Virus record (IMG/VR): IMGVR_UViG_3300009506_000115
Location: 1 to 35,452 of that record
From: a virus
Strand: one strand, 5' to 3'
Length of the DNA: 35,452 nucleotides
The position numbers were made by a program, and so were the translations under genes. Every line of letters begins with the position of its first letter. Positions within the stretch are counted from its first letter, which is position 1. Of this stretch, positions 19,786 to 34,580 are shown piece after piece. The notes under the pieces were generated by a model. That model had not been told where the DNA came from. It worked only from the letters and a program-made list of their open reading frames with translations, and made no database searches.

Positions 19786-20835
19786 TTACCACCTGTCTGG
19801 ATAAGCGTCCGGAAGTCGCGGTCTTCTTCTTATACGCTTATCAGGCTCTTGATGTGTCCTTAATCTATAGTCCCTATCTGTCCTTCTTTTGCTTGCCCAT
19901 TTTCTGAGAGTTTGTTTGGCTATCTCTTTGCGCCGGCCCCAATAATCGGCCAATGATTCAATCTTGCCATCTGTTGGCATCATATAGGCTTCTTCGCAAA
20001 CACCATATTCAATATACTTCCTGGAAAAAATAGGATATTCGCTTTCTTCATCCATACCACCGGATAACTCGCGTGGTCGTTTCTGGGAAACCGTTAACAG
20101 GCTTTCGTCAATATCTGCCATTGCAACTACAAGGCCCGTGCTGGAATCATCTACAAATCCAGTTGCATCAGCAAGTAATCCATATTCAGAAGAAACTGTG
20201 GCGAATCCATCATCATAAAGCACTGCCCCCTCACCTGATTCTTCTGGCCATGTTCCTATTGTTGGCTGTGGATAAAGGTAAATCAAGTCTCCCTGGTCGT
20301 CTTCACGCCGATAAGCGAATGTTTCACCACCTCTTGTTTGCCATGAAGGATCGTCAATTTGAATACTTTTTAAAGTGATTAAATCAATCGGGTCTTTATC
20401 GTATGCAATAAACTCTATCTGCTCTACATTATTGCCACACCATACCGGGGGCGGTTTGTGGCCGGTATATATAAAAGCTTCCCATGGGTGGGTATAGACA
20501 TAATTTGAATCAACCGTACTGATTGTCGATCCCGCTATCTGAAGCATTTCCCAACGGTAACAAACAGTCTTGTCGGCCTGGCTGTAATTGTAGCCAACCT
20601 GATAAACATAACCTTGTATGTTTTGATTGTGATTCCATTCGAAGTCATAGGTATGTGACATCTGGAACTTGTTAGGAACTGGAGTTGCCTGAACCTGAAC
20701 CAGTAAATCAACAAATTCACGTAATTCTGATTGGTTTTTATTATAAAGCCGTAAAAGCTGAGAGTTCGTCCAAATATTACCGTCTGGATCTCTTAGTTTA
20801 CGTCTTATGCGTGTAAGTTGCTTTGACCAGTCCAT
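19786..20835 (-). CDS. Podovirus-type tail connector protein
   Basis: 349 aa. The N-terminal helix pair (SKQLTRIRRKLRDPDGNIWT followed by NSQLLRLYNKNQSELRE) is typical of head-tail connector proteins, followed by a beta-rich middle and a basic C-terminus (TDRDYRLRTHQEPDKRIRRR). It overlaps the preceding adaptor gene by 31 nt and is followed by the nozzle gene. The exact family is not certain. Confidence 0.55.
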   Translation of the reverse strand: MDWSKQLTRIRRKLRDPDGNIWTNSQLLRLYNKNQSELREFVDLLVQVQATPVPNKFQMSHTYDFEWNHNQNIQGYVYQVGYNYSQADKTVCYRWEMLQIAGSTISTVDSNYVYTHPWEAFIYTGHKPPPVWCGNNVEQIEFIAYDKDPIDLITLKSIQIDDPSWQTRGGETFAYRREDDQGDLIYLYPQPTIGTWPEESGEGAVLYDDGFATVSSEYGLLADATGFVDDSSTGLVVAMADIDESLLTVSQKRPRELSGGMDEESEYPIFSRKYIEYGVCEEAYMMPTDGKIESLADYWGRRKEIAKQTLRKWASKRRTDRDYRLRTHQEPDKRIRRRPRLPDAYPDRW

Positions 20836-21470
20836 TCTTCACGTTTGACAGTCATAAACTGTCTGATTTGGTTTTTATCAAGGTCTTGCATTCCTAGTTT
20901 TGTTAAATAGTTTGAAAAATGTTTTGTTGCGGTCTTGGCATCTCCACGGGAAGCGAAATATTCCGAAACTGCATAGTCGACACAAGCCCATCCATATTGA
21001 TCTCTGATCCTAACTCTATCGGTATCGGTTTCATATCGTTTCGGAATAATCGCCGCTTTTAGTTCCAATATTCCCGTGCTTGATGCCGGCGCAGGATGAA
21101 TACATAAATAGCTAAATCCTACCGGACAATATCTTTCAGGACCGCTGGAATTATAAAGCCATCGTGGATTAAAAGCATTCAATCCAATAAAATCGGTTTG
21201 TTTTAATCTTATCTGTCTTACAACGTCCCAAACACTCTTAATCCAGGCGATAGAGCCACGCCTGAAGTCAAACCGATAGAAGAAACTATTCTCTCGTAAT
21301 GGAATATGGAACGTTTCTTCGCTGCATCCTGTTAATATTGAAATATCTTCAATTGCATCATTGATAGAATCGCGAATCTGCGCCATGCCTTGTTCGGTAT
21401 CGGTGAATACATCCGGGCTGTCTAAATCCTCACCGATTAAATCTAAAACGTGTTTTTCTAGATTATTCAC
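20805..21470 (-). CDS. Head-tail adaptor protein
   Basis: 221 aa from GTG at 21470, overlapping the previous TGA. Helical start (IRDSINDAIEDISILTGCSE), a beta middle (IPLRENSFFYRFDF) and a C-terminal helical part (YGWACVDYAVSEYFASRGDA followed by KTATKHFSNYLTKLG) are the layout of portal-bound adaptor proteins of short-tailed phages. Position before the connector and nozzle genes agrees. Confidence 0.55.
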   Translation of the reverse strand: MNNLEKHVLDLIGEDLDSPDVFTDTEQGMAQIRDSINDAIEDISILTGCSEETFHIPLRENSFFYRFDFRRGSIAWIKSVWDVVRQIRLKQTDFIGLNAFNPRWLYNSSGPERYCPVGFSYLCIHPAPASSTGILELKAAIIPKRYETDTDRVRIRDQYGWACVDYAVSEYFASRGDAKTATKHFSNYLTKLGMQDLDKNQIRQFMTVKREEWTGQSNLHA

Positions 21471-21739
21471 GGTACATACTCAAATATCTGTGCAGCGCCA
21501 CCAGTTCCAGAAACAGAATAATAAATCACATCTGCCGCTTCTATTGGGTTTCCTAGGTAATATCCGGGTTGCTTTGAAGAAAGATCAAAAATAATATCGC
21601 CGGTTGCATTATTCTTTCTTATCACCACAACCGCTGCGTTTGTACCATCGGTAGTTAAAATAATCCCGCCCAACAGTTTTCGCGTAAGGTTGAATGTACC
21701 CGTTCCGGTTACTTTCTCTATGCCCAATGCTCTTAACAT
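21467..21739 (-). CDS. Small beta-rich structural protein
   Basis: 90 aa from the ATG at 21739 with AGGAG 7 nt upstream. Alternating strands (GTGTFNLTRKLLGGIILTTD, AAVVVIRKNNATGDIIFDLS) suggest an Ig-like or jelly-roll fold of the head-decoration type. First gene after the sugar cassette and its bordering hairpin; directly coupled to the adaptor gene. Confidence 0.5.
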   Translation of the reverse strand: MLRALGIEKVTGTGTFNLTRKLLGGIILTTDGTNAAVVVIRKNNATGDIIFDLSSKQPGYYLGNPIEAADVIYYSVSGTGGAAQIFEYVP

Positions 21740-21760
21740 AAGCAACTCCTAAAATGGGGT

Positions 21761-21785: not shown

Positions 21786-21795
21786 TAAGCCGAAG

Positions 21796-22590
21796 CTACC
21801 CCAAACTTTTCAGCCGTTGTGTTATTTCCTTAGCTTGTCTGTCAAAAGAACCCCATATTTTAGGTATTTCAATTTCTTGCTTTGTCTTGTTGTGATTCTC
21901 AGACAATACCTGTTCTATATGACTTCTTTGTGGCTTGCCAAGTCCTATCCCGCTGAAACCGTTAATAATGGAATCAATTTCTCTGTTTTTAATCCATGCG
22001 AATGGAAAGTTTAAAAACTTACAGCCGCCAATATGCTTTAAAATATATTCATGTAATATTATCCAATACCATGCACATGCTATCCGGCTGTCTTTTATAT
22101 CTTTAGGGAAAAGTCTACCCTGTAATGCCCTATCGTTTCTGCTGTATACTCCCCATCGGGTCATGCTCACTACGCATTCGTCAAAATCACGCCAAAGAAG
22201 AATAAACTTTACTTTCGGAAAAAGCCTTTTAATTGCCGGTAAAAATATGGTTGACCTATGATTGATATCGCCAAAAACAAGGGCGTTGCATTGAGTCACC
22301 GAGCAAACATCTCTACGTGTTGCCCAATATATCTCATCCCATACTTTTGACTTGCAATCGTTTTTATAAACCTCGTCATTAAGATGCCATAACCGTGGAG
22401 CAAGTTCGTGGTATGCGAAAACGTTAGGCACACAATTTAATAAATGTGTAAGTGTAACCGTTCCACACTTACCAGTCCCTAATACACAAATTAAGTTAAC
22501 ATTCTTTGAATCAAACCATCTTGGTGGATAGTTTAATAAAAAATGTTGTAAGACTTGCGCCTTATCTATTACAGGTTGAGTCGCAACCAT
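21796..22590 (-). CDS. Sulfotransferase family protein
   Basis: 264 aa. Residues 37-47 (LGTGKCGTVTL) form the PAPS 5'-phosphosulfate loop of sulfotransferases (family form xGxxKxGTT). Residues 128-147 (VKFILLWRDFDECVVSMTRW) contain the 3'-phosphate motif with R134 and S142. An HELAPR segment follows strand 2. It would move sulfate from PAPS to a hydroxyl or amino group, most likely on a sugar given the neighbouring glycosyltransferase genes. The acceptor is unknown. Last gene of the cassette. Confidence 0.8.
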   Translation of the reverse strand: MVATQPVIDKAQVLQHFLLNYPPRWFDSKNVNLICVLGTGKCGTVTLTHLLNCVPNVFAYHELAPRLWHLNDEVYKNDCKSKVWDEIYWATRRDVCSVTQCNALVFGDINHRSTIFLPAIKRLFPKVKFILLWRDFDECVVSMTRWGVYSRNDRALQGRLFPKDIKDSRIACAWYWIILHEYILKHIGGCKFLNFPFAWIKNREIDSIINGFSGIGLGKPQRSHIEQVLSENHNKTKQEIEIPKIWGSFDRQAKEITQRLKSLG

Positions 22591-22889
22591 TTGTCCATTC
22601 TGTGCAATGCCCTGCCAGTTTCAGGATCGCCAAGCATTCTGCCGTCATTTTTGGGGTTTACCGATTCAATATTATCTACCTGCCGCATCATATCCCGTGC
22701 ATCGTACTCAGTAGGGAATCCGTCACTAAGTCCAACAATCTGATGGATAGTAAATGGCTCCCAACAGGAGCCAACACTAGTCACTACCCTGGCAAAGTCA
22801 GAAAACTTCATAATCTTTTCGCCCTTCGGCTGACCTAATACCTTTGGCATTGCACTGATAAAAATTGTTCTACTTGCTACGCCGCTCAT
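22569..22889 (-). CDS. Hypothetical protein in the sugar cassette
   Basis: 106 aa; ATG overlaps the upstream TGA and has AGGAGG. Segments SDFARVVTSVGSCWEPFTIH and a charged C-terminus (GRMLGDPETGRALHRMDKW) are not recognised. It overlaps the sulfotransferase start by 22 nt, so the two are probably translated together. It could be a partner protein or a fragment of a sulfotransferase or Wzz-like enzyme. Confidence 0.45.
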   Translation of the reverse strand: MSGVASRTIFISAMPKVLGQPKGEKIMKFSDFARVVTSVGSCWEPFTIHQIVGLSDGFPTEYDARDMMRQVDNIESVNPKNDGRMLGDPETGRALHRMDKWLRLNL

Positions 22890-23542
22890 TCTTTTACCTC
22901 CTGAATTGGTCCGTCAATTTCATTATCGAAACGACCCCTTGTGGCGCAATCCAGCGCCGGTATTATTTTATATTCCCCTACCCGCCATGATGGTTTATTG
23001 TTTAAAGTCTTTATAAAGTCGGCAAACTGATAATCTGCCCAGTTAAAATGTCTACAATGTTTCGGAGTCGGCCCCCTGGTATGAGATGAGTTGTTCTCGT
23101 CGTATGGGAATCCGCCATTCTCTTTTAATGCCTCAAGAAACTTCCTTGAACATTTAAGCGCTCGACCATGAATGTAATAGTTCTTTTCGGCATGACTTGT
23201 TGAGCTAAAAAAATACACCTGATCGTCTTTTATCTTAGCGATTGAATCAATAATCTTTGTTGGTCCAACAAACTTGTAATCATGTATTATCGGGCGAAAG
23301 CGTATGTCGTCGTGTAAAAACAAAACGTCTGACTTTCCATCCCATATGTTTTTTAAATAAAAATCATAAGCTCCCCACTCAAGGCCGATATTTTCACGCT
23401 TTGTAACCTTTATTCCGTCCGGTATGTTGTCCCGTTCCCATCTTTTGTTTGCGATTATATGAATTTCATATTTACTCTTTATGTGCGCCATTGCCTGTAA
23501 AAACTCTTCCTTATAATAATAGCCGCAAATACAGATTTTCAT
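22886..23542 (-). CDS. Glycosyltransferase-like protein
   Basis: 218 aa; ATG overlaps the previous TGA. A Rossmann-type start (KICICGYYYKEEFLQAMAHI) is followed by VTKRENIGLEWGAYDFYLKN and DVLFLHDDIRF. N-x-G-x-EWGAY plus a DD motif is typical of proteins annotated as glycosyltransferases of polysaccharide loci (rhamnan-synthesis or DUF3431-like). No full family match can be given. It sits between the GT-methyltransferase fusion and the sulfotransferase. Confidence 0.6.
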   Translation of the reverse strand: MKICICGYYYKEEFLQAMAHIKSKYEIHIIANKRWERDNIPDGIKVTKRENIGLEWGAYDFYLKNIWDGKSDVLFLHDDIRFRPIIHDYKFVGPTKIIDSIAKIKDDQVYFFSSTSHAEKNYYIHGRALKCSRKFLEALKENGGFPYDENNSSHTRGPTPKHCRHFNWADYQFADFIKTLNNKPSWRVGEYKIIPALDCATRGRFDNEIDGPIQEVKE

Positions 23543-24948
23543 TTCGTTGCACCCCCGGCTCTTGGATTCAACATAAACACACAGTTTGAAATAGGTTCCA
23601 TTCCAAGCTCATGCATATATTTGAGAAAATCGCCACGTTCCCAATTTATGTGTTCCATATTGCCGTCGGTGTTATCGAGTAACAGATAATTAGTAAATAA
23701 AACGCCCTGCGGGATAAATCGTTCGACTACTTTTAACAATGGTTCGTGCCAGTCTTTTAAATGCTCAAGACTATCTGAAAAAAGCGCATAGGAGAAAATC
23801 TTCTCATCCGGCCATTCATTAAAGTGCGCCCTGTCGCTTAATCCGTATTTTTTGACTCGCCACTTTAAAAACTCGTATGAACAAGAGCCGTCAATATCGA
23901 AGAAATACATCGTATGGCCACGTTTGAGCATTTCAAAACCGATTGGTGCGGAGCCACAACCAAAGTCAGCACCCGTCAGTTGATGACCGGCGTTAATATT
24001 CATGAATGCAAAACTCATCCATCGTTGTGGATGTTCCGAAAAATGATAAAGAACCTGCCTGGCTAATTGTTCCTTACCCATATGAGCATAATATTCAGGC
24101 GTGCCGAGGCCGTATTTATCGGACAGGTTCATTGCTCTGTAAGCATAGTTCTCATACAAGGTCTTTAATTCTAACTCTTCATGGATGTCTAAATATTCCA
24201 TTGCATCGTATTTGAAGAGATTAAGAACATTATTCGTGTGCCAATCGTTTGATAAATTGGTCGAGGACTTGGAAACATTTTCAGTTCTGAATTGATCCTT
24301 GTTTGCCTTGCTTACAATCACGCTTTTGTTCAACACATGGCCTATCTGAATACCGCTATCGGTATAAACCTTGAAACCCGCCTCCCTTGCCCGTTTACAC
24401 AACTGAACATCGGTTCCATAAGTATGTTCCGGCTCAAACCAGGGCTGTTTTATCTTGTCGAAGATGTGCATCTTGATAAGCATGCACCCACCACCCTGGA
24501 CAGCAACCTCTTGAAGCCCGCCCGTTAACTGTTCGTCATTCATCATTCTAAAAGCGCCGTTTTTCTCTTCCATGACTACCGGACCAGCATTACCGCCACG
24601 GTGATAATAAATCGGGCCGACTATATCAACATCATGAGAGATAAGCCGTTTTAAAAATCCATAACATCCCGCACCCTCGCCAGGAATGCCGGAAGTATCA
24701 TCAACATCAATAATATGATCGTCATCCAACATTAAAAGATAATCCGCGCCAACATCAAGCGCCGCCATGACAAGTGCATTTCTCGCCCTGAATTGTTCGC
24801 TTTTATCTTTCACATGTAAATAAAAGTCAAACTCCGGATATCTGCGCCCGAAATAAAAAGCCATTCTCATGTAGTCTTCAAGTGTTTGTGCGGTTACATT
24901 CTGGTAGCACGGAATGCCGATTAAAATCTTTTTCTTTTGTTCGTCCAC
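23539..24948 (-). CDS. Bifunctional glycosyltransferase (GT-A) - SAM methyltransferase
   Basis: 469 aa from a GTG with AGGGG upstream. N-terminal half: KKILIGIPCYQNVTAQTLED and YLLMLDDDHIID (metal-binding DDD) with later GTDVQLCKRAREAGFKVYTD make a GT-A/GT2-like fold. C-terminal half (about 325-469): GADFGCGSAPIGFEML is SAM motif I, FFDIDG motif II, and SDSLEHLKDWHEPL follows as in class I methyltransferases. It overlaps the acetyltransferase gene by 71 nt. A sugar may thus be transferred and methylated by one polypeptide. Confidence 0.8.
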   Translation of the reverse strand: MDEQKKKILIGIPCYQNVTAQTLEDYMRMAFYFGRRYPEFDFYLHVKDKSEQFRARNALVMAALDVGADYLLMLDDDHIIDVDDTSGIPGEGAGCYGFLKRLISHDVDIVGPIYYHRGGNAGPVVMEEKNGAFRMMNDEQLTGGLQEVAVQGGGCMLIKMHIFDKIKQPWFEPEHTYGTDVQLCKRAREAGFKVYTDSGIQIGHVLNKSVIVSKANKDQFRTENVSKSSTNLSNDWHTNNVLNLFKYDAMEYLDIHEELELKTLYENYAYRAMNLSDKYGLGTPEYYAHMGKEQLARQVLYHFSEHPQRWMSFAFMNINAGHQLTGADFGCGSAPIGFEMLKRGHTMYFFDIDGSCSYEFLKWRVKKYGLSDRAHFNEWPDEKIFSYALFSDSLEHLKDWHEPLLKVVERFIPQGVLFTNYLLLDNTDGNMEHINWERGDFLKYMHELGMEPISNCVFMLNPRAGGATK

Positions 24949-25288
24949 TGTTAGCCCCTATCGCGTTTAGTTTATATCTTACTAATCCGTTTCCCTTGCC
25001 TGAATACTGAAAGTTTAAACTTTTAAAAAAATTGATTGACGGTTTATTTTCTGTTTTTATAAGTGCTATTACGTTCTTATTGCCAAATTCTTTTTTAGCC
25101 TTATCTATCGTCCTGTTTACGAAACGCCGTCCTACTCCTTTTCTATGATATTCAGGAACAATTGTTATGTGGATATATATTCCATGTAGACGGTTTTCAT
25201 AATGGAGTTGACCCACATATCGATCGTTCCATATTTCGTAAAACTGGACTTGATTGTTTTTCAATGTCTGTTTTATGTGAAAATTCAT
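24878..25288 (-). CDS. GNAT N-acetyltransferase
   Basis: 136 aa. IYIHITIVPEYHRKGVGRRF contains the acetyl-CoA loop (RKGVGRR, Q/RxxGxG/A type), followed by a helix and strands (VIALIKTENKPSINFFKSLN, FQYSGKG) typical of GNAT enzymes. It overlaps the aminotransferase gene by 92 nt and the next gene by 71 nt. The last 25 or so residues lie wholly in the overlap and may be an extension. The natural substrate is probably the amino sugar made by the neighbouring enzyme. Confidence 0.75.
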   Translation of the reverse strand: MNFHIKQTLKNNQVQFYEIWNDRYVGQLHYENRLHGIYIHITIVPEYHRKGVGRRFVNRTIDKAKKEFGNKNVIALIKTENKPSINFFKSLNFQYSGKGNGLVRYKLNAIGANSGRTKEKDFNRHSVLPECNRTNT

Positions 25289-26372
25289 AGTCCAACACAG
25301 TGTTTATTACCTTGTCCTGTTCTTCATTTGTCATTTCGGGATACATTGGCAGGCTCAAAAGTTTTGGCCAAATCCTGTCAACATTCCTGCATCTCTGATT
25401 GCTCTTATAGGCTTCAAATAAATAAACCGGCTTATAATGAACACCTGAAACAATATCGTTCTCTAATAAATGAGAATAAAGCCCGTCACGGTCATTCACC
25501 TGAATAGGGAAAAGATGCCACGAAGATTTATAGGTTGAATCATCATAAGCCGGTAATCCAACAAGCGGCGCAATTGCATGATGAGGTCTAAATGCTTTCA
25601 TATATCTTTGAGCCAATCGCCGGCGTTTTTCATTCATCCAATCAAGTTTTTCAAGTTGTGTTAACCCAAGTGCTGCAGTAATATCGTTCATATGATATTT
25701 ATAACCACGCTCGATTATTTCATATTCCCATCCGATTCTCATTCGTTCATAAGTTGATTTACTAATCCCGCACCATCGAAGCCTTTTCAATCGCTCATAA
25801 AGCGTTTTGTTATTTGTGGTTATCATTCCGCCATCACCACAAGAAAGGTTTTTAACAGCATGAAATGAAAAACAGCCTAAATCACCAAAACTCCCAACTT
25901 TCTTCCCATTATAGGTTGCACCACAAGCGTGGGCGGCATCCTCAATTACAACTAGATTTCTTTTTTTGGCAATCCACATAATTTTATCCATATCACATGG
26001 ACGCCCTGAATAATGAACTGGAATAACTGCATCTATTCCATTACAATCAATTTCATCTGGATTTATATTTAAAGTATTCGGATCAATATCAGCATATTTG
26101 ATAATACATCCATTTTCTTCAATTGAACTCACTGTAGAAACAAAAGTAAGCGGAGTTGTTATTATATTTTTTTTATTATAGCATTTAACTGCTAAATTTA
26201 ATGCTGAGGTGCCACTGTTAACAGCAACTGCATATTTAGTTCCAACATAACAAGCAAACCATTTTTCAAATTGTTCAACTGTTGGCCCAAGTCCTGTCCA
26301 TCTTGTTGTTAAAACATTTGCAATTGCCGCAGCATCTCTATAATCATAAAAAGGCTTAAATAATGGAATCAT
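25197..26372 (-). CDS. DegT/DnrJ/EryC1-type nucleotide-sugar aminotransferase
   Basis: 391 aa, full family length. The PLP lysine is K174 in CFSFHAVKNLSCGDGG. Other family motifs: PLFKPFYDYRD at the start, AVNSGTSAL (50-58), PVHYSGRPCDMD and IEDAAHACGATYNGKKVGSF. These enzymes convert a keto-sugar nucleotide to an amino sugar using glutamate. No dehydratase is encoded here, so the keto-sugar must come from the host. ATG follows GAGGAGGG and overlaps the upstream TGA. The last 30 residues overlap the GNAT gene. Confidence 0.9.
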   Translation of the reverse strand: MIPLFKPFYDYRDAAAIANVLTTRWTGLGPTVEQFEKWFACYVGTKYAVAVNSGTSALNLAVKCYNKKNIITTPLTFVSTVSSIEENGCIIKYADIDPNTLNINPDEIDCNGIDAVIPVHYSGRPCDMDKIMWIAKKRNLVVIEDAAHACGATYNGKKVGSFGDLGCFSFHAVKNLSCGDGGMITTNNKTLYERLKRLRWCGISKSTYERMRIGWEYEIIERGYKYHMNDITAALGLTQLEKLDWMNEKRRRLAQRYMKAFRPHHAIAPLVGLPAYDDSTYKSSWHLFPIQVNDRDGLYSHLLENDIVSGVHYKPVYLFEAYKSNQRCRNVDRIWPKLLSLPMYPEMTNEEQDKVINTVLDYEFSHKTDIEKQSSPVLRNMERSICGSTPL

Positions 26373-27058
26373 TTGACCCTCCTCAAATATCCATTAGGAC
26401 AAGCAGTTATGAAAAACTTTTCTCGACTTCTATCTATCTCAAAATCACTATTTGTTGATAGAAATGCAGCAACTGCGGTCAATGGGTTGTCTTGTCCTGT
26501 CTTATCGCATGACTTATATAGTCCGTTGCTGATTATTGTATCTTCAACAATGTAATAACAGCCCTTGGTTACGAGTGGTCCGTATAGCTCGAGGTTTTTA
26601 GTCACATTATCGAATGTATGAGCACAGTCATCAATAACCATGACTGTTTTTGCATATTTCAATAGTTCTTTGACTTTGTTTATCGTTTCAGTTGATTCAG
26701 AGTTTCCGCTAATTGTTATTACATTTTCTGTTTTCTCTTTATGTTCTAAATCAACAGAAACAATAAACTGAGCCGCATCGACTAGATTATTGTGAATATC
26801 TCTTAACCAAAGACAAGATCCTCCCTCACCGCCACCAAGTTCAATTATTACTTCCGGTTGTGTTTCATATATGATTTCCTGATATACCCAAGCATCACAT
26901 GGATGTTGATTTAGTCTTCGACCTTTATAAGTCATATAATTATTTGATGCGTCCTGCATAATCGGAATTAAATGACCGATTGGCATGTGAAGGGTAGAGA
27001 GTTCAAGGTTGCCACCATAAATCTTTTCTCTTGCCTCTCCTGCATCAATTATATTCAT
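26369..27058 (-). CDS. CmcI-family methyltransferase
   Basis: 229 aa. Features of the cephalosporin hydroxylase/CmcI family of SAM-dependent sugar O-methyltransferases: TYKGRRLNQHPCDAWVYQEI, SAM loop ELGGGEGGSC (73-82), SVDL, ISGNSES, VMVIDDCAHTFDNV, GCYYIVEDTI, EIDRSREKFFITACPNGYL. Family members methylate hydroxyl groups in polysaccharides or antibiotics. First enzyme of the cassette; its ATG overlaps the TGA of the zinc-ribbon gene. Confidence 0.85.
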   Translation of the reverse strand: MNIIDAGEAREKIYGGNLELSTLHMPIGHLIPIMQDASNNYMTYKGRRLNQHPCDAWVYQEIIYETQPEVIIELGGGEGGSCLWLRDIHNNLVDAAQFIVSVDLEHKEKTENVITISGNSESTETINKVKELLKYAKTVMVIDDCAHTFDNVTKNLELYGPLVTKGCYYIVEDTIISNGLYKSCDKTGQDNPLTAVAAFLSTNSDFEIDRSREKFFITACPNGYLRRVK

Positions 27059-27291
27059 TCGTCGCTATCCTCAATTGGCGTGAATAGCGCGATATAATCG
27101 GGATCAACTTCTTTTTCTTTTAAGATATCAATCTCTTTGTCGTTAAGAGTTAAAACCGCTTTAACCCTTCTGGAACCACACTTCTTACAACAGCCCACTT
27201 TTTGTAAGGTGGCCCGGAACAACATTTTTTGACAATCGCAACACCTCACAATTGGATCGCTGAAAGGTGCATCAAAACTGTAGTCTACCAT
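27055..27291 (-). CDS. Zinc-ribbon protein at the head of the cassette
   Basis: 78 aa. CCDCQK and CCKKCGS form a CxxC...CxxC zinc ribbon (about 17-40); the C-terminus is acidic. Preceded by AGGGAGGTTTAA and, 20 nt further up, by the hairpin at 27312-27333. Small zinc ribbons also occur between structural genes of other phages, so it may belong to the capsid operon rather than to the sugar genes. Confidence 0.55.
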   Translation of the reverse strand: MVDYSFDAPFSDPIVRCCDCQKMLFRATLQKVGCCKKCGSRRVKAVLTLNDKEIDILKEKEVDPDYIALFTPIEDSDE

Positions 27292-27339: not shown

Positions 27340-27798
27340 TTAAAGAGCCTTAATAAAACAGGCAATTGCCGCTGTCGTCCATTTTGTCTGTGCAGCCAGG
27401 GCAAACGCACACGGATACCTGATAGGTGTCGTGGTTGCCGTTGTAACCGCATAGTTTTCAAGACAGAACACAGAACCAGCCGCGTTAAGTGCAAGCGGGG
27501 TCCCTGCTGCAATATTGCCACCCGAAGTATAAACCCTTGTCCGTACCGCACTGTGATACCCATAGACTTGAACAAGCCCATAGGCATCAATTGCAATTGC
27601 TTCCGCTACAATACCAGCGGCAGCAAGGCCAAGGTTCGTAGTAATTGCCGAGGGCATTGTTACACCAACGCCGTCTGCGTCTCCTGTGAAATCCCAAATT
27701 ACCGCCTGACCATTTGAAAGCGCCGCAGTAGCGTAGGAGTTCTGCACAACGATGAAAATACGTTCCGGGTCGTCCCTTTTGATCCTCTGAAATAACAT
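27340..27798 (-). CDS. Head decoration-like protein
   Basis: 152 aa, Ala/Thr/Gly-rich and beta-dominated (ERIFIVVQNSYATAALSNGQ, AAGTPLALNAAGSV). The build and position directly after the major capsid gene fit a capsid-stabilising protein of the DUF2190/decoration type. ATG preceded by AAAAGGAGAAAACA. Confidence 0.55.
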   Translation of the reverse strand: MLFQRIKRDDPERIFIVVQNSYATAALSNGQAVIWDFTGDADGVGVTMPSAITTNLGLAAAGIVAEAIAIDAYGLVQVYGYHSAVRTRVYTSGGNIAAGTPLALNAAGSVFCLENYAVTTATTTPIRYPCAFALAAQTKWTTAAIACFIKAL

Positions 27799-27856: not shown

Positions 27857-28969
27857 TTATGCTACGATGGTTGTAAGTATGTCGTAAGCCACACCGAGCT
27901 TACGAAGGTTGCTACAGGTTGCGTTGCCCATGAACAGAATTTTTGCCGTTTTAGCTGTCTGATTCTCAGGCTCTACAAACGGCGTAGTGATAATGTCCGT
28001 CTGGGAGTCAATGGTCAGATTGTAAAAATTCGTGTTCACGAAAAATGCTGACCCTTTGGTAATTGCGGCAGTTCCAGTTTGAACGTCCGGGGTCACTTCG
28101 TCCCATATACAAGTAGCGCCACGGAGTTTAATGTTATCAAACCCCATATCGGCCATTTGCGTGTTCTGATACCGTTGCCGCTGTCCCATGGCCGATTCAT
28201 AGATTTCATACGAAATCTGGTCGAATACAACTAAATCCGGCGAACCGCCAGAGCCACGGGAGCAATAGTTATACATGCGCTTTAATGCCTGCTCCAAACC
28301 CAAATAAGTGGTAGCGTTCAGGGCAAAATCGTTTCCGGTTTGAGTACCGTTTGAACCGATATTAGCCGTACGGTGCCTCCACCATGAATAACTTGCGCCT
28401 GAAATATTGCCAACATTGCCGCCTGTGGTCGGGTCCGTCCGGTTGAGTTTTCTTAAAAAATAACCCAACGGCAAAAGGCCCACATTCCCACCACTTGACG
28501 TTTCAGGAACAAACGTGGAACTTGAAACTGTACCCAGTAAAAGGTCGTTGTTAAGTTTTTCACGCATTGACATTTCGGCTTGTTTAATCTTCTGTTCAAG
28601 CAAGTTCAAAAGCCGTCCTTCACCTGCGTTCTGCCTTTCCTCTTTCCTGCTAATACTGATCGTCCCGGCAACTTCAGCCCACTCGTAAAATGCCGTGGTC
28701 ATTCCGTCTTGTGGCGTTGTATCAAGGGTTTCATACCCACCAACAGTTTTAACAGTGCTGTTGGTGCCATACATCAGCGGAACAGCGATACGCTCGCCAC
28801 CATCCTGTTTTCGTACAGCGTTAGACATTCGTAAATATGCAAGGAATGCAGAATCCTTAAAAATATTGTCAACCATGACTTTCCGGTACGCAGCAAGAGT
28901 GGTGCTGAGTAGGGCGTCATAATAAACAGTATTAGTACTTGGTGCTGTTGAATCACCAATTGTTGCCAT
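27857..28969 (-). CDS. Major capsid protein
   Basis: 370 aa. The gene follows the scaffold gene and precedes the decoration gene, with the strong RBS GGAGG. N-terminal helix (YYDALLSTTLAAYRKVMVDN), then GGERIAVPLMYGTNSTVKTV and GYETLDTTPQDGMTTAFYEW, typical of N-arm and E-loop regions of HK97-fold capsid proteins. A helix EQKIKQAEMSMREKLNNDLL precedes a beta-rich P/A-domain-like part. No signature motif exists for this family, so the call rests on context, size and composition. Confidence 0.75.
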   Translation of the reverse strand: MATIGDSTAPSTNTVYYDALLSTTLAAYRKVMVDNIFKDSAFLAYLRMSNAVRKQDGGERIAVPLMYGTNSTVKTVGGYETLDTTPQDGMTTAFYEWAEVAGTISISRKEERQNAGEGRLLNLLEQKIKQAEMSMREKLNNDLLLGTVSSSTFVPETSSGGNVGLLPLGYFLRKLNRTDPTTGGNVGNISGASYSWWRHRTANIGSNGTQTGNDFALNATTYLGLEQALKRMYNYCSRGSGGSPDLVVFDQISYEIYESAMGQRQRYQNTQMADMGFDNIKLRGATCIWDEVTPDVQTGTAAITKGSAFFVNTNFYNLTIDSQTDIITTPFVEPENQTAKTAKILFMGNATCSNLRKLGVAYDILTTIVA

Positions 28970-28986: not shown

Positions 28987-29802
28987 TTAAGCCGCCTTTT
29001 CAGCCATTTGTTTCTTGGCTAATTGTACCGCTTCATTAAAATTTCGCGGTTCGGCTGTTGTAGTTTCGCTTCTTTTTGTGGTGCTTATCCCGGAGGTGCC
29101 GGCTGATTTAGCTTTGCTTTCCATTTTTTTAGCCCATTTTTGATATGCCCTGCTTTCTAAAACTTCCTTTGGCAAGGCTAGGGTATAAAGGGCCAAAGGA
29201 TCATTAACCAATGAGGGATGTTCCTTTAATTTGTCCATCATCTCGGATTCATACTGCCTCCAATCTGTGGCATTATCATCTAGGAACTTTTCAACGCTCT
29301 GCTTCCGCATATCCTTGATTGAACCAATAAAAGGCTGTAGTTCTTTCATTACTTCCGAAACAGCATCTTGTTTTGCCTTGGTAAAAACATCATTCCATGT
29401 TTGCGGTTCGTATTCTTCATCCTGTGTTTGCTGTTTGTTGGCCGGGGCAAGTGAATAACCCATCTGTTGCGCCAGCTGCTGCATATATTGCACAGGGTTA
29501 GAGTTAAACTGGTCGTATGCTTCTGCTTTGCGTTGTATATCCTTGATGGCTTGTGTTTTCTTGCTAAATGCTTTCTGCATCTGCTTATAACCGGCCATCA
29601 ATTCTGGTTTATCCTTAATGGACTCCGGGTCAAAAAAGGTTTCTTCGGCTACTGGCTGAGTTCCTGCACCTTCGGTTGTCTCAGTTTTTACCCCTTCAGG
29701 TTGTCCGGCAGTTCCAGCAGGGGTAAAGTCTCCCTTCGTTGGATCGTCTGCTTGTCCTGCGGTTGTCTGTTCGGTTCCTGTAGTGATTCCTTCGTCTGCC
29801 AT
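28987..29802 (-). CDS. Scaffolding protein
   Basis: 271 aa from the ATG at 29802 (GGAGG 7 nt upstream, inside the 29809-29835 hairpin); a start at 29826 would read through the hairpin. Acidic, Thr/Gly/Glu-rich disordered N-terminus; central coiled coil (about 60-110, MQKAFSKKTQAIKDIQRKAE); Ala/Lys-rich basic C-terminus (FNEAVQLAKKQMAEKAA). An acidic N-terminus with a basic helical C-terminal tail is the usual scaffold design. It lies between portal and capsid genes. Confidence 0.7.
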   Translation of the reverse strand: MADEGITTGTEQTTAGQADDPTKGDFTPAGTAGQPEGVKTETTEGAGTQPVAEETFFDPESIKDKPELMAGYKQMQKAFSKKTQAIKDIQRKAEAYDQFNSNPVQYMQQLAQQMGYSLAPANKQQTQDEEYEPQTWNDVFTKAKQDAVSEVMKELQPFIGSIKDMRKQSVEKFLDDNATDWRQYESEMMDKLKEHPSLVNDPLALYTLALPKEVLESRAYQKWAKKMESKAKSAGTSGISTTKRSETTTAEPRNFNEAVQLAKKQMAEKAA

Positions 29803-29808
29803 AAAAAA

Positions 29809-29835
29809 ACCTCCACTGTTTTTCAACAGGGAGGT
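29809..29835 (-). promoter_or_regulatory. Hairpin sequestering the scaffold Shine-Dalgarno (or attenuator)
   Basis: In the leftward mRNA, ACCTCC-CTGTT (29835-29825), loop GAAA, AACAG, one unpaired U, GGAGGT (29814-29809): 11 bp with a GAAA tetraloop. The 3' arm is the Shine-Dalgarno of the scaffold gene, followed by a run of Us and ATG. The shape is both that of an intrinsic terminator and of an RBS-blocking switch. Confidence 0.65.
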
Positions 29836-30162: not shown

Positions 30163-30338
30163 TATTTTTTCTTTGGCCGTCCTGCTTTCTTTGCTGGTTC
30201 TTTTTTCTGCTCTTTTTTGGTAATTAAATCTTTTATTTTTTCACTACAACTTAAACAAACGTCAAACCGCTCATCTGTTCTCTGAAAAGATACTTGATCA
30301 TTTGCTGCAGCAGAGCATATATCACATATTCTTGCCAT
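30162..30338 (-). CDS. Zinc-finger protein with AT-hook-like tail
   Basis: 58 aa from the ATG at 30338 (overlaps the previous TAA, TAATG). CDICSAA and CLSCSEK form a two-knuckle zinc site. The C-terminus KKAGRPKKK has the GRP core of an AT-hook, a minor-groove DNA-binding element. It could touch DNA at packaging; inferred. Confidence 0.55.
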   Translation of the reverse strand: MARICDICSAAANDQVSFQRTDERFDVCLSCSEKIKDLITKKEQKKEPAKKAGRPKKK

Positions 30339-30622
30339 TATACCCACGCCTTTCCATTTGGTTTTGGAGTATCGCCCTTTTCAGACACGCCCTGTTCTTC
30401 CATAAGCCTACGTTTCTGTGCTAGGGTTTCAATATGCGCTCCTAATGTATCGTCATAATATCCGCCCGTAGGTACTCCGCCCATTGAAATGGCATATTGG
30501 GCATGAGGTACTCTTTTCATTTCTCTTTTACAGTGGGGGCATGGAAGTTTTGTATCGTTCATTCTGGCAAATATATCTATTTGCTTTCCACACCTTTCGC
30601 ATTCATAATCATATAAAGGCAT
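30338..30622 (-). CDS. FmdB-type zinc-ribbon protein
   Basis: 94 aa starting MPLYDYECERCGKQIDIFAR, followed by CPHCKREMKRVPH: the pattern of the FmdB/CxxC regulatory zinc-ribbon family (MPxYxYxCxxCG). Many phages carry such a gene near portal and terminase; its role is unknown. The C-terminal half is Gly-rich then helical. Confidence 0.7.
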   Translation of the reverse strand: MPLYDYECERCGKQIDIFARMNDTKLPCPHCKREMKRVPHAQYAISMGGVPTGGYYDDTLGAHIETLAQKRRLMEEQGVSEKGDTPKPNGKAWV

Positions 30623-30842
30623 TACACATCTCTATATTTAATCGTTTTTTTGTTTCTTTAATCTGCCAAGCAAAAATATCAGTTAAAGATAAACCTTTAC
30701 CATTCTTCAAATGATGCCTATAATTTCTGACCCGTTTAATGCCGTTTTTAACATAAAAACCATAAGGTTTATATTTATAGGCAATCGAATTATATGAAAT
30801 TGGTATTGATATGCTATATTCTTTATGTTTGTAATCACCCAT
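30609..30842 (-). CDS. Hypothetical protein
   Basis: 77 aa, basic, Tyr-rich start (GDYKHKEYSISIPISYNSIA) and a helical end. It overlaps the portal stop by 8 nt and the next gene by 14 nt. More AT-rich than its neighbours. No family recognised. Confidence 0.45.
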   Translation of the reverse strand: MGDYKHKEYSISIPISYNSIAYKYKPYGFYVKNGIKRVRNYRHHLKNGKGLSLTDIFAWQIKETKKRLNIEMCNAFI

Positions 30843-32676
30843 TAATATTCCCCGCCCCTGGTTGATTTAATGATTGTAAGCCGCTCATCTGTCCGGCCAT
30901 TGCGCTACGCGGCCTTACTTCCGATACTCCTGCTGTACTGCCAGGATTTCCAGGTGGTGCCATTTGCCCGGAAACTATCTGCTGACCTAGTTGTAAAAGT
31001 TCTTGCACCAGTGCCTCATCTTCAATATGATGCATCTCCATAACGCGTTTCATAAGTCTCGGGCGGGTCATAATATGTGGGAAGCCAGCCATTACCTGGA
31101 GGAATGCCATAAACGAGGCCCGTTCCATTTGTGGAAGTTGCGGAATCGTGGCCCCAACATTGACAGAATATTCATATTCACCATCAATTTTCTCGTAATC
31201 GGTTTCCCTAACTAGCTGCCACATTTCACCTTGCGGCCCAGTTACAAAAATCGCTGTCTCGCGGTCGATATTGGCTTGAACCAGCATATCAAGTCGCCGG
31301 GCGATATTGGTAACAAAATCCATGACCATGCTTTTTTCGTCTGATTGCCGGATCTCAAGGCGGTTATCAAGAATGCTGGCTTGCGTTGCCGAATCAGCTC
31401 CTGCGATTCCCCTTGATTCGTCACTTGCACCACCAAGCAGTTCTATCATGTCGTTGTTGAGAAAATTCAACTCAATATAGCGTTGCTGGTCAAGTGGTGC
31501 ATCCTGAATCGGCTTGACCGCATCCAATACTTTTGCTTTTATTACTGTACCATCATCACCGTTTTCAAGTTTTGACAGTTCGGTGTCCTCAACTGCTTGG
31601 TCCAGTGCTAGATATTTACGGTTAAATCTTTTCCGGTGAGTCATTACCTGCGACCGCGCCATATTGTATTCTTTTGCAGGATCAAGTCCTTGGGTTAACG
31701 GCGGAATCGGATAAAAAGAATCATCTCGCAAAGTAAACCGCAGAATTGAAAAACAATGCTCATCAATTCCTGGTGGATAATCGTCTGGTTTTAAAAGTGG
31801 TAATTTTGCACCCTCGGCTATTATAAACCACCTTTTTTCTTTTATATCGTAAACTTCCCAATAGACAATGCACTTGTTTGGTTTTTTCTTATTGTAATTA
31901 GAGGAAAACGGGTCTGTATTTCCCAACTCATCACCCTTTTTCCGCTTTTTCCTGTCTTGATTCTCTTGATCTTCAGAGCCGGACGCGTCACTAATGGTAT
32001 TTACTGCCGCTTTGCTGAACCTTTTATCGTTTTTGGCCTCATCAAGTGTTGTTTCAACCCTTTGCGCTATCCATTTCCACGAGGACTCAAGCGGGCCGGC
32101 GTCCTCGTCAACTAGAAAGTCGTCCGGATGGATTCTCATAACCTCATAGCGTTCATTTACCGGGATGTGTTCAGGTTCTAGCATTGGCGCACCGTCTTCG
32201 CCCAATAAAACCGTTTCGTCCTCGGTTACATATTCGCCATAATTGGGGTTTTTCTTCAAGTCGGCTTGGTATTTTGTCTTAATAACACCGTATTGAAAAA
32301 AAGCGTCCTGAATTGCTAGTTTTGCATTGTCCTTTAGTTTGGTTTCACCCTTCAAGTAGTTGAGCATTGCAGCCCGGATTTTCCCGCGCTGTTCCCACAA
32401 TGCAATATTCATAGGATTCGGGCTGAAACTACGCTTTAATTTCACATAAAAATAAGGATCGGTTGGGTATAGACTTGGAATTTGAGCCTTTAGGTGGGAA
32501 TAAATCTTGTTAATGGTTATCCATTCCGCTTCTGCATAACCATAAATATTCTGCCGACCTTCAAAAAACTCTTTACACAATTCAACTTTAAATTGTTTTT
32601 TCCAATTTTCACGTACCTTTTTAGCACGCCGAATTTTTTCTTCCCATTCTGTTTGAAAGTCTGCCAAGTTTGCCAT
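30835..32676 (-). CDS. Portal protein
   Basis: 613 aa. Helical start (WEEKIRRAKKVRENWKKQF), a domain with YEVMRIHPDDFLVDEDAGPL, then FTLRDDSFYPIPPLTQGLDP and KEYNMARSQVMTHRKRFNRK. This is the arrangement of portal proteins of P22-like and related phages, in which the PIPP-Q segment and the following helices form the stem and channel. The C-terminal 60 residues are Gly/Pro/Gln-rich. Its place after terminase and before scaffold and capsid is standard. Twelve copies would form the DNA gate. Confidence 0.85.
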   Translation of the reverse strand: MANLADFQTEWEEKIRRAKKVRENWKKQFKVELCKEFFEGRQNIYGYAEAEWITINKIYSHLKAQIPSLYPTDPYFYVKLKRSFSPNPMNIALWEQRGKIRAAMLNYLKGETKLKDNAKLAIQDAFFQYGVIKTKYQADLKKNPNYGEYVTEDETVLLGEDGAPMLEPEHIPVNERYEVMRIHPDDFLVDEDAGPLESSWKWIAQRVETTLDEAKNDKRFSKAAVNTISDASGSEDQENQDRKKRKKGDELGNTDPFSSNYNKKKPNKCIVYWEVYDIKEKRWFIIAEGAKLPLLKPDDYPPGIDEHCFSILRFTLRDDSFYPIPPLTQGLDPAKEYNMARSQVMTHRKRFNRKYLALDQAVEDTELSKLENGDDGTVIKAKVLDAVKPIQDAPLDQQRYIELNFLNNDMIELLGGASDESRGIAGADSATQASILDNRLEIRQSDEKSMVMDFVTNIARRLDMLVQANIDRETAIFVTGPQGEMWQLVRETDYEKIDGEYEYSVNVGATIPQLPQMERASFMAFLQVMAGFPHIMTRPRLMKRVMEMHHIEDEALVQELLQLGQQIVSGQMAPPGNPGSTAGVSEVRPRSAMAGQMSGLQSLNQPGAGNING

Positions 32677-33095: not shown

Positions 33096-34580
33096 CTATC
33101 TCACCCTACCATAAGCAGCAGCCAAACTGGTACCGTGCCGCTTTGCGTATTGTTTTGCCCTTATATATCTTGCGCGTTCTGCCTGAAAGGTTCCTTGCGG
33201 GATCGTTTCAATCTTTTTCGGTACCACTGGCCTGAACATGCAAAAATAACGGGTACAGTCATAACCCTCATCCGGTTGCTCGGTGTCAACGTCTTCCGGG
33301 TTTTTCTCGTCCTCTCTTAAATTCTGTATTTCTTCCCACCATCTTTTAACACCGAAAGGGCCGTTTTCATCTTCCTTGAAAACGATCATCCGTGGTTGTT
33401 CGTTTAGAATCTCTCCTGTTTCCCGGTCTATTTCTTCCTCCATCTGCAGTCGCATATGCAATTGTTGCTTGCCCCTAAGACGGTCGTTATCGGCTTTAAG
33501 GAAGAATAGCCCATGTCGCATAGCATCTTCTGCAAATGATGGTCCAAACATAACATTTGAACCTTTAATTTTTGTCGGTCCCCAACATGCAGGATCGGCC
33601 AGCCTGGTATTGATTTTTTCACCGCGTTCGTGTTCTCGTATCATTGCACAAATTTGATCGTTAGTTTGCCGCAGTCCGATATTGGGATCATATTCACCAT
33701 GGTCGTTTTTGCCCATTCCGTAAAATGCTTTGTAAAGGTACGCCACGTTATCATAATCGACTGTAAAGTACAATGCACACCATGGCCTGGCATAGCCCCA
33801 ATCGAATACCATAATTTTCGGCCATTCGGCTGGTATTTTAAACGAGTCAGCTCCATGTTTAATCTGTGAAAGCTCTGTAAATGCCTGGCCTTCAAAAACA
33901 TCCCAAACGCCATGGAGCAAGCGCATTTTCTCAATATGCGGTAGGGCTTCCAGCCGGCGAATATAGAGCGGATCGTTTTCCATGATTGAAGGATTGTCAT
34001 AAACCGTACTCGGTATAAAAACTCTACTCGTGCCTGTTTCGGGGTCTATATAGGTTTGTCCGGGTTTGGCCACATCAATGAATCGTTTTTTAAAGAAGAG
34101 GTGTCCGATACCTCCAGGATTTGTTGTGAGTAAAAACTGCAAACCAAGTTCCGAATTGGACCGTCTAACACGGCTAAAGAGGTACAAATATTGCGAACCT
34201 GTGAATTGCGTAACCTCATCAATTCCGACTTTGTGAAACTCTTTGCCCTGGTAGTTGTACTTGTCGTTTTCATGCTGCATATGCCCCAGAGTTATTCTTG
34301 CGCCGTTTTCCCAATAGAATCGGTGTTCACTTGCTCTATATTCTCCGCCGATTTGCGGATACCACTCAAGGCACCTGTCGATAAGTTCCTGAAGTTGCGG
34401 GAAAGTCCTTCGAAGCAAAAGTCCATGATAACGCGAGTGCCATACATCTCTGCTAAGTTCCATAATGAGACAGTCGGATTTCCCACCTCCTGCCGCACCT
34501 CCGTAAAGGACTTCAAACTCGCCCCTTGCGCAGAACTCTTGTTGTGGTCCTGGGTGTGGATACCATTTGAATCCATTCAT
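33096..34580 (-). CDS. terL: Terminase large subunit
   Basis: 494 aa. Walker A GGAAGGGKSD (28-37), coupling to LLLRRTFPQLQEL, Walker B VGIDEVTQF (118-126, D121 E122), motif III LLTTNPGG (150-157), then the RNase H-like nuclease domain with D260 in IMVFDWGYARPW. It translocates DNA into the prohead and cuts concatemers. ATG overlaps the TGA of the Tat-signal gene and follows GGAGA. Confidence 0.95.
   Translation of the reverse strand: MNGFKWYPHPGPQQEFCARGEFEVLYGGAAGGGKSDCLIMELSRDVWHSRYHGLLLRRTFPQLQELIDRCLEWYPQIGGEYRASEHRFYWENGARITLGHMQHENDKYNYQGKEFHKVGIDEVTQFTGSQYLYLFSRVRRSNSELGLQFLLTTNPGGIGHLFFKKRFIDVAKPGQTYIDPETGTSRVFIPSTVYDNPSIMENDPLYIRRLEALPHIEKMRLLHGVWDVFEGQAFTELSQIKHGADSFKIPAEWPKIMVFDWGYARPWCALYFTVDYDNVAYLYKAFYGMGKNDHGEYDPNIGLRQTNDQICAMIREHERGEKINTRLADPACWGPTKIKGSNVMFGPSFAEDAMRHGLFFLKADNDRLRGKQQLHMRLQMEEEIDRETGEILNEQPRMIVFKEDENGPFGVKRWWEEIQNLREDEKNPEDVDTEQPDEGYDCTRYFCMFRPVVPKKIETIPQGTFQAERARYIRAKQYAKRHGTSLAAAYGRVR

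Follow-up and report, generated by a model that had tools for sequence, protein, structure and literature searches.

Virion glycosylation is known from the mycobacteriophages Che8, Corndog and Myrna, in which phage-encoded glycosyltransferases (GTs) modify phage structural proteins (Freeman et al., 2023, as cited in PMC12363180 and PMC12619734). Sulfotransferases have also been reported from phages, namely OM43 phages, where their function was called unclear (PMC10580990). The virus record IMGVR_UViG_3300009506_000115 (hereafter the window: the whole record, linear and 35,452 bases long, in which the minus-strand genes follow a podovirus-like order) carries a cassette of sugar-modifying genes between the genes for a decoration protein and a head-tail adaptor. 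We put at about 60% the probability that this module glycosylates the virion of a podovirus-like phage, with a head protein as acceptor, most likely the adjacent decoration protein. Virion glycosylation and phage sulfotransferases are thus both on record; the GTs here show no detectable homology to those of Che8, and the module is linked to a decoration gene.

The role described for the Che8, Corndog and Myrna enzymes is the role proposed here. What those phages carry, a phage-encoded GT, appears in the window as a GT2-family core enzyme and a second protein with a predicted GT-A fold. The Che8 GTs lie far from the head genes, whereas the module here is tied to the decoration protein, and no gene in the three-GT block of Che8 is annotated as a sulfotransferase or an aminotransferase. 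The sulfotransferases of OM43 phages share the broad Pfam family PF13469 with that of the window (PMC10580990). Unlike them, the sulfotransferases discussed below recur in one GT-bearing slot among head genes, a setting that suggests a candidate substrate.

Related contigs were collected with scans based on the major capsid protein (MCP), which gave 14 contigs and then a wider set with MCPs 55-75% identical. A profile of the GT-bearing fusion protein added four further contigs, and a search of metagenome-assembled genomes (MAGs) gave three, two of them spanning the slot. The slot after the decoration gene is readable in 36 distinct contigs, two of which stop before the adaptor, and all 36 encode a GT of the fusion's family in the slot between decoration protein and adaptor. 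This count is no search artefact, because 32 of the 36 contigs were found by MCP alone. Two architectures occupy the slot. Architecture A (22 contigs and the window) comprises a zinc-ribbon protein, a GT2~methyltransferase fusion (GT2~MT) and usually a 106-aa protein; architecture B (14 contigs) comprises a GT4, usually a separate methyltransferase and zinc ribbon, and a GT2, with a 109-aa protein in ten. Marker genes of the two are never mixed in one contig.

Architecture follows the decoration gene (27340-27798 in the window). On maximum-likelihood trees the A/B label changes once for the decoration protein, against 8 times each for MCP, adaptor and scaffold and 6 times each for portal and TerL; with the labels shuffled, some 10 to 11.5 changes are required. 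Forcing the B rows together is rejected by the approximately unbiased test for MCP (p=1.5e-57), adaptor (p=5.6e-14) and portal (p=4.6e-6), while in the decoration tree a split supported at 100 already sets the B rows apart. Given one change on the decoration tree against six to eight on the others, decoration gene and sugar module have been exchanged as one block, and the genes on either side did not follow.

The core of the window's module pairs a 78-aa zinc-ribbon protein (27055-27291), whose four cysteines are invariant across 24 A- and B-type relatives, with the GT2~MT fusion (23539-24948). The C-terminal half of the fusion matches Methyltransf_23 (E=7.9e-7), and its GT half gives a sub-threshold match to Glycos_transf_2 (E=0.01). 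The GT assignment is nonetheless firm at the family level, since the L062 orthologue passes the Pfam cut-off (24.5 against 23.3 bits), 10 of 22 family members match the PHROG 12406 "glycosyltransferase" and residues D75-D76-D77 are invariant in 22 of 22; the family itself corresponds to phrog_1574 (21 of 22 members).

The second GT (22886-23542) has no family match by sequence, and profile-profile comparison found no homology to the GT2 domain. Its AlphaFold2 model (pLDDT 79.9, pTM 0.83) adopts a GT-A fold, with a VIA-align Z of 13.2 to mannosylglycerate synthase over 168 residues at 3.1 A, a Foldseek E of 3.6e-5 to chondroitin synthase, ABO transferases next, and 41 PDB chains at a Foldseek E<=0.001. 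An HDD motif, invariant in 5 of 5 relatives, would correspond to the motif with which GT-A enzymes bind metal. The protein is thus a predicted GT by fold, and a shared fold is no proof of activity.

The remaining enzymes are recognizable to differing depths. The CmcI-type O-methyltransferase (26369-27058), related to the rhamnosyl O-methyltransferases, matches PF04989 over the full domain (E=1.9e-40) and the CmcI structure 2br3 (E=9e-9), and has relatives in L025 and L014. Its score of 80 bits against the 400-bit cut-off of NF045824 indicates that it is not an enzyme of that family as such. The DegT/DnrJ/EryC1/StrS sugar aminotransferase (25197-26372; PF01041, E=2.5e-100) resembles ArnB in the PDB (E=4e-61) and shares its superfamily with PseC, ArnB and WecE. 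It scores below the curated cut-offs of its best NCBIfam, PseC (313.7 against 423.5 bits), and of WecE (201.8 against 434.85), so the assignment stands at the superfamily level. With DegT below both cut-offs and the sister cassette in L025 lacking the acetyltransferase, the cassette corresponds to neither a PseC-PseH nor a WecE-WecD pair. That GNAT acetyltransferase (24878-25288; PF00583, E=4.3e-9) is confined to the window among the contigs compared and overlaps its two neighbours by 92 and 71 nt; it is probably a later insertion, since these overlaps lie outside conserved domains and L025 lacks it.

The sulfotransferase (21796-22590; PF13469, Sulfotransfer_3, E=1.3e-5) has orthologues above their own cut-offs in L041 (51 bits) and L025 (28.8 bits, PF17784). 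Both retain R134-D135, S142 and K128, and the N-terminal loop is conserved, placing the protein by its residues in the sulfotransferase superfamily with the 3'-phosphoadenosine 5'-phosphosulfate (PAPS) site kept. Between it and the second GT lies a 106-aa protein (22569-22889) conserved among type A modules, with relatives in 19 contigs; its predicted model has no match in PDB or BFVD, and profile comparison gave no match with the 109-aa protein of type B. From zinc ribbon to sulfotransferase, consecutive cassette genes overlap by 4, 4, 92, 71, 4, 4 and 22 nt. A tblastn search of 50,697 phage records matched neither the CmcI-type protein nor the sulfotransferase. In IMG/VR, the sulfotransferase or GT-MT fusion used as a single query sequence likewise gave no matches, and profile scans gave matches.

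The first-pass annotation, made from this one sequence, had placed seven overlapping open reading frames (ORFs) between the decoration and adaptor genes and read them as a carbohydrate-decorating cassette inside the morphogenesis operon. All seven are real and intact at the coordinates it gave, and gene identities and position support that reading; it passed over the zinc ribbon and a 92-aa protein (21467-21745) that also lie between the flanks. The protein it called GT-like gains a predicted GT-A fold in spite of having no family match, its sulfotransferase is borne out by the family match and the better-scoring orthologues, and its remark that a dehydratase is missing agrees with the ORFs scanned, in which no NDP-sugar dehydratase was seen.

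The closest counterpart of the cassette is that of L025 (IMG/VR 3300033145_000625, 43.5 kb), which has the same set minus GNAT in the equivalent slot, with the same flanks. Its order is decoration, zinc ribbon, sulfotransferase, CmcI, two small ORFs, DegT, GT2~MT, second GT, 106-aa protein and adaptor, so that the two small ORFs separate CmcI from DegT. Identity to the window is 81% for the decoration protein, 65% for MCP and 49% for the adaptor; within the cassette it is 64% for GT2~MT, 50% for the second GT, 47% each for CmcI and DegT and 25% for the sulfotransferase. The first-pass annotation had suggested looking for the same gene order in viral metagenomes, and L025 answers that search with a set complete except for GNAT. 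It had named an assembly chimera at 21790 or 27300 as a possible refutation, which the shared set and flanks rule out for practical purposes; degradation of the genes is rejected as well, as ORFs and motifs are intact. Its description of aminotransferase and acetyltransferase as the standard pair does not survive the comparison, as L025 has DegT without GNAT and the pair that recurs is DegT with CmcI, adjacent in the window, L140 and L136 and near each other in L133.

Around the conserved GT, slot contents vary. Optional genes include CmcI, DegT, the second GT, radical-SAM/SPASM proteins, extra GTs, methyltransferases and sulfotransferases. The last are found in 6 of 37 contigs (the window, L004, L014 with two copies, L025, L041 and L055) and represent no fewer than three Pfam types (PF00685, PF03567 and PF13469/PF17784), that of L004 being assigned by clustering with L014 and L055. 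The comparison points to the GT as the core of the module and to DegT, CmcI, the second GT and sulfotransferases as variable additions. Radical SAM/SPASM proteins, another kind of tailoring enzyme, occur in the type A slots of L012 (7720-8589, checked against Pfam), L013 (11968-12774) and L036 (8422-9129). The decoration gene stands in tandem duplicate or triplicate beside type A modules in L013, L014, L032, L033 and L043. A complete B module (GT4, methyltransferase and GT2) was found at 10710-13405 of L063, and the B module thus extends beyond this clade, because the MCP of that phage is just 36% identical; none was seen in 46 other distant loci, many of them short. A far larger sugar cassette lies at 3000-13400 of L127, a 37.7-kb phage contig, with sulfotransferase-like and nucleotide-sugar epimerase-like genes, a distant relative of the second GT, DegT, and proteins resembling a CMP-sugar synthetase and a NeuB/KdsA-type synthase (names assigned partly by eye).

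The GT2 family of the fusion is also found beside virion genes in other phages. In Manatee Spring phages it follows MCP and one small gene and precedes an adaptor-like gene (hidden Markov model E of 1e-25 and 4e-29 for two phages, a third found by BLAST). In Microcystis phage Mel-JY34 it immediately follows MCP. Methanogen virus vir323 carries it, under the annotation phrog_1574, a short way ahead of a tail gene, and in the cyanomyoviruses S-SSM7 and ACG-2014f it has baseplate or tail-collar genes nearby. These phrog_1574 proteins thus share a GT2 family often encoded beside MCP, adaptor or tail genes. The GT stands alone in those phages, whereas in the window it is fused to a methyltransferase and joined by DegT, CmcI, a second GT and a sulfotransferase. 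In the literature collection searched, no paper on phrog_1574 was found. That the family recurs beside virion genes in phages unrelated to one another favours a virion component as the target of the GT.

The proposed mechanism takes up gene identities, by sequence or predicted fold, along with the intactness of the genes, their conserved position and their joint exchange with the decoration protein; from these we infer an acceptor, a glycan and its sulfation, the activities and order of the enzymes, late-gene co-expression and a benefit. The operon would produce the decoration protein together with the enzymes that modify it. The core would consist of the GT2~MT fusion and the zinc-ribbon protein encoded beside it: the GT2 would attach a sugar to a head protein in the cytoplasm, and the fused methyltransferase domain would methylate it. 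DegT would convert a keto-sugar nucleotide into an amino sugar, with the host proposed as its source because the ORFs scanned yielded no dehydratase, and GNAT may acetylate the amine. The CmcI-type enzyme would contribute O-methylation, the second GT would add a further sugar and the sulfotransferase would transfer sulfate from host PAPS. The capsid surface would then bear a short amino-sugar glycan, methylated and sulfated (acidic), which may provide shielding, adhesion or stability.

Several points weigh against virion glycosylation. The acceptor, the product and expression are what we infer rather than observe. The Che8 GTs that glycosylate virions have no significant BLASTP or profile match to the cassette GTs, a comparison that covered the Che8 GTs among those of mycobacteriophages; the function does not require homology. 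Two family matches fall just below threshold, that of the decoration protein (PF09956, 22.3 bits against a 24-bit cut-off) and that of the window's sulfotransferase (26 against 27 bits). Joint exchange could reflect plain linkage without function if the MCP gene, being well conserved, is a preferred site of crossover. Among type A modules, distances of the GT and the decoration protein given MCP are not significantly correlated (r=0.23, p=0.10), and the bootstrap difference from the adaptor (r=-0.08, p=0.69) is not significant; the corresponding value for the 106-aa protein and the decoration protein is r=0.43 (p=0.016).

The rival explanations place the target elsewhere or dispense with a pathway. 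That the cassette alters the host surface polysaccharide, for superinfection exclusion or to free progeny from receptor-bearing debris, is unlikely. Pathways for surface polysaccharides typically include DegT, CmcI, GT4 and sulfotransferases, and other phages (L127, L136 and L139, for example) carry larger sugar cassettes. However, the cassette enzymes have no membrane-like segment, and neither a flippase, an initiating lipid-carrier transferase nor a polymerase was seen among the cassette proteins, which thus lack the membrane-embedded GT, or flippase with lipid-carrier GT, of Gtr-like O-antigen or serotype conversion. Nor does a host-surface role account for the head-operon location or for the module's exchange together with the decoration gene. 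Hypermodification of phage DNA bases against restriction, for which phage GTs are known (Pyle et al., 2024, as cited in PMC12619734), is very improbable. Its appeal comes from weak matches: 7 of 22 fusions to the T4-type hydroxymethylcytosine glucosyltransferase PHROG 842 (best E 0.0013), and L062 to Pfam TAGT below the cut-off (E 0.0029). A thymidylate-synthase-like base hydroxymethylase (PF00303) is absent from 24 related records, some perhaps fragments, and present in 9 of 14 control genomes; a search for TET/JBP dioxygenases (PF12851) gave no match, but none in the control genomes either. DNA modification, too, leaves the exchange with the decoration protein unexplained. Improbable as well is a neutral landing site, with a role for the GT alone and tailoring genes as passengers without a joint pathway. 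Slot contents do vary widely between contigs, and among the contigs compared GNAT is private to the window. Against this, the additions are strongly skewed to carbohydrate tailoring with motifs intact, the set of DegT, CmcI, GT2~MT, second GT and sulfotransferase appears again in L025, and DegT and CmcI appear together again in L133, L136 and L140. Capsid glycosylation is the best supported of the three fates offered by the first-pass annotation, whose interpretation as a whole is partly supported; the GT core and its travel with the decoration protein are invisible from a single sequence.

On the minus strand, like the cassette, are TerL (33096-34580), a presumed portal (30835-32676) and scaffold (28987-29826), both named from position, MCP (27857-28969; phrog_9953), the decoration (cement) protein and, across the cassette, the adaptor (20805-21470; phrog_399, E=0.0015), with distal structural genes beyond it. 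Directly after the presumed portal, and kept in relatives, is a second small zinc-ribbon protein (30338-30622; PF09723, E=9.8e-12). The 92-aa protein between cassette and adaptor has a 51% identical counterpart at the equivalent position in L002. This small gene shifts between two sites, the adaptor side and the TerL side, because relatives lie upstream of TerL in other contigs (L008 3663-4016, L015 3230-3508 and L045 77-364). In a promoter and terminator scan left unused for conclusions, promoter-like sites were no commoner than in shuffles and 15 terminator-like sites were seen against 9.4 expected. MAG bins with close relatives (two Gottesmanbacteria and one Dehalococcoidales; L044, L045 and L046) are prone to likely binning errors and give a possible host hint only, from which no host is assigned.

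A more specific form of virion glycosylation, which we hold tentatively and at somewhat longer than even odds, is that these are exchangeable "capsid serotype" modules: a decoration protein with its own glycosylation enzymes, block-swapped among virions that differ in other respects, sulfation being a finishing step that recurs, giving a sulfated, methylated amino-sugar coat. The slot offers phage sulfotransferases a candidate role, the sulfation of a capsid-borne glycan, and joint exchange singles out the decoration protein as the candidate acceptor. If this is true, virion glycosylation in this group of uncultured phages would be a surface trait that is modular and evolving, much like the switching of serotypes by bacteria.

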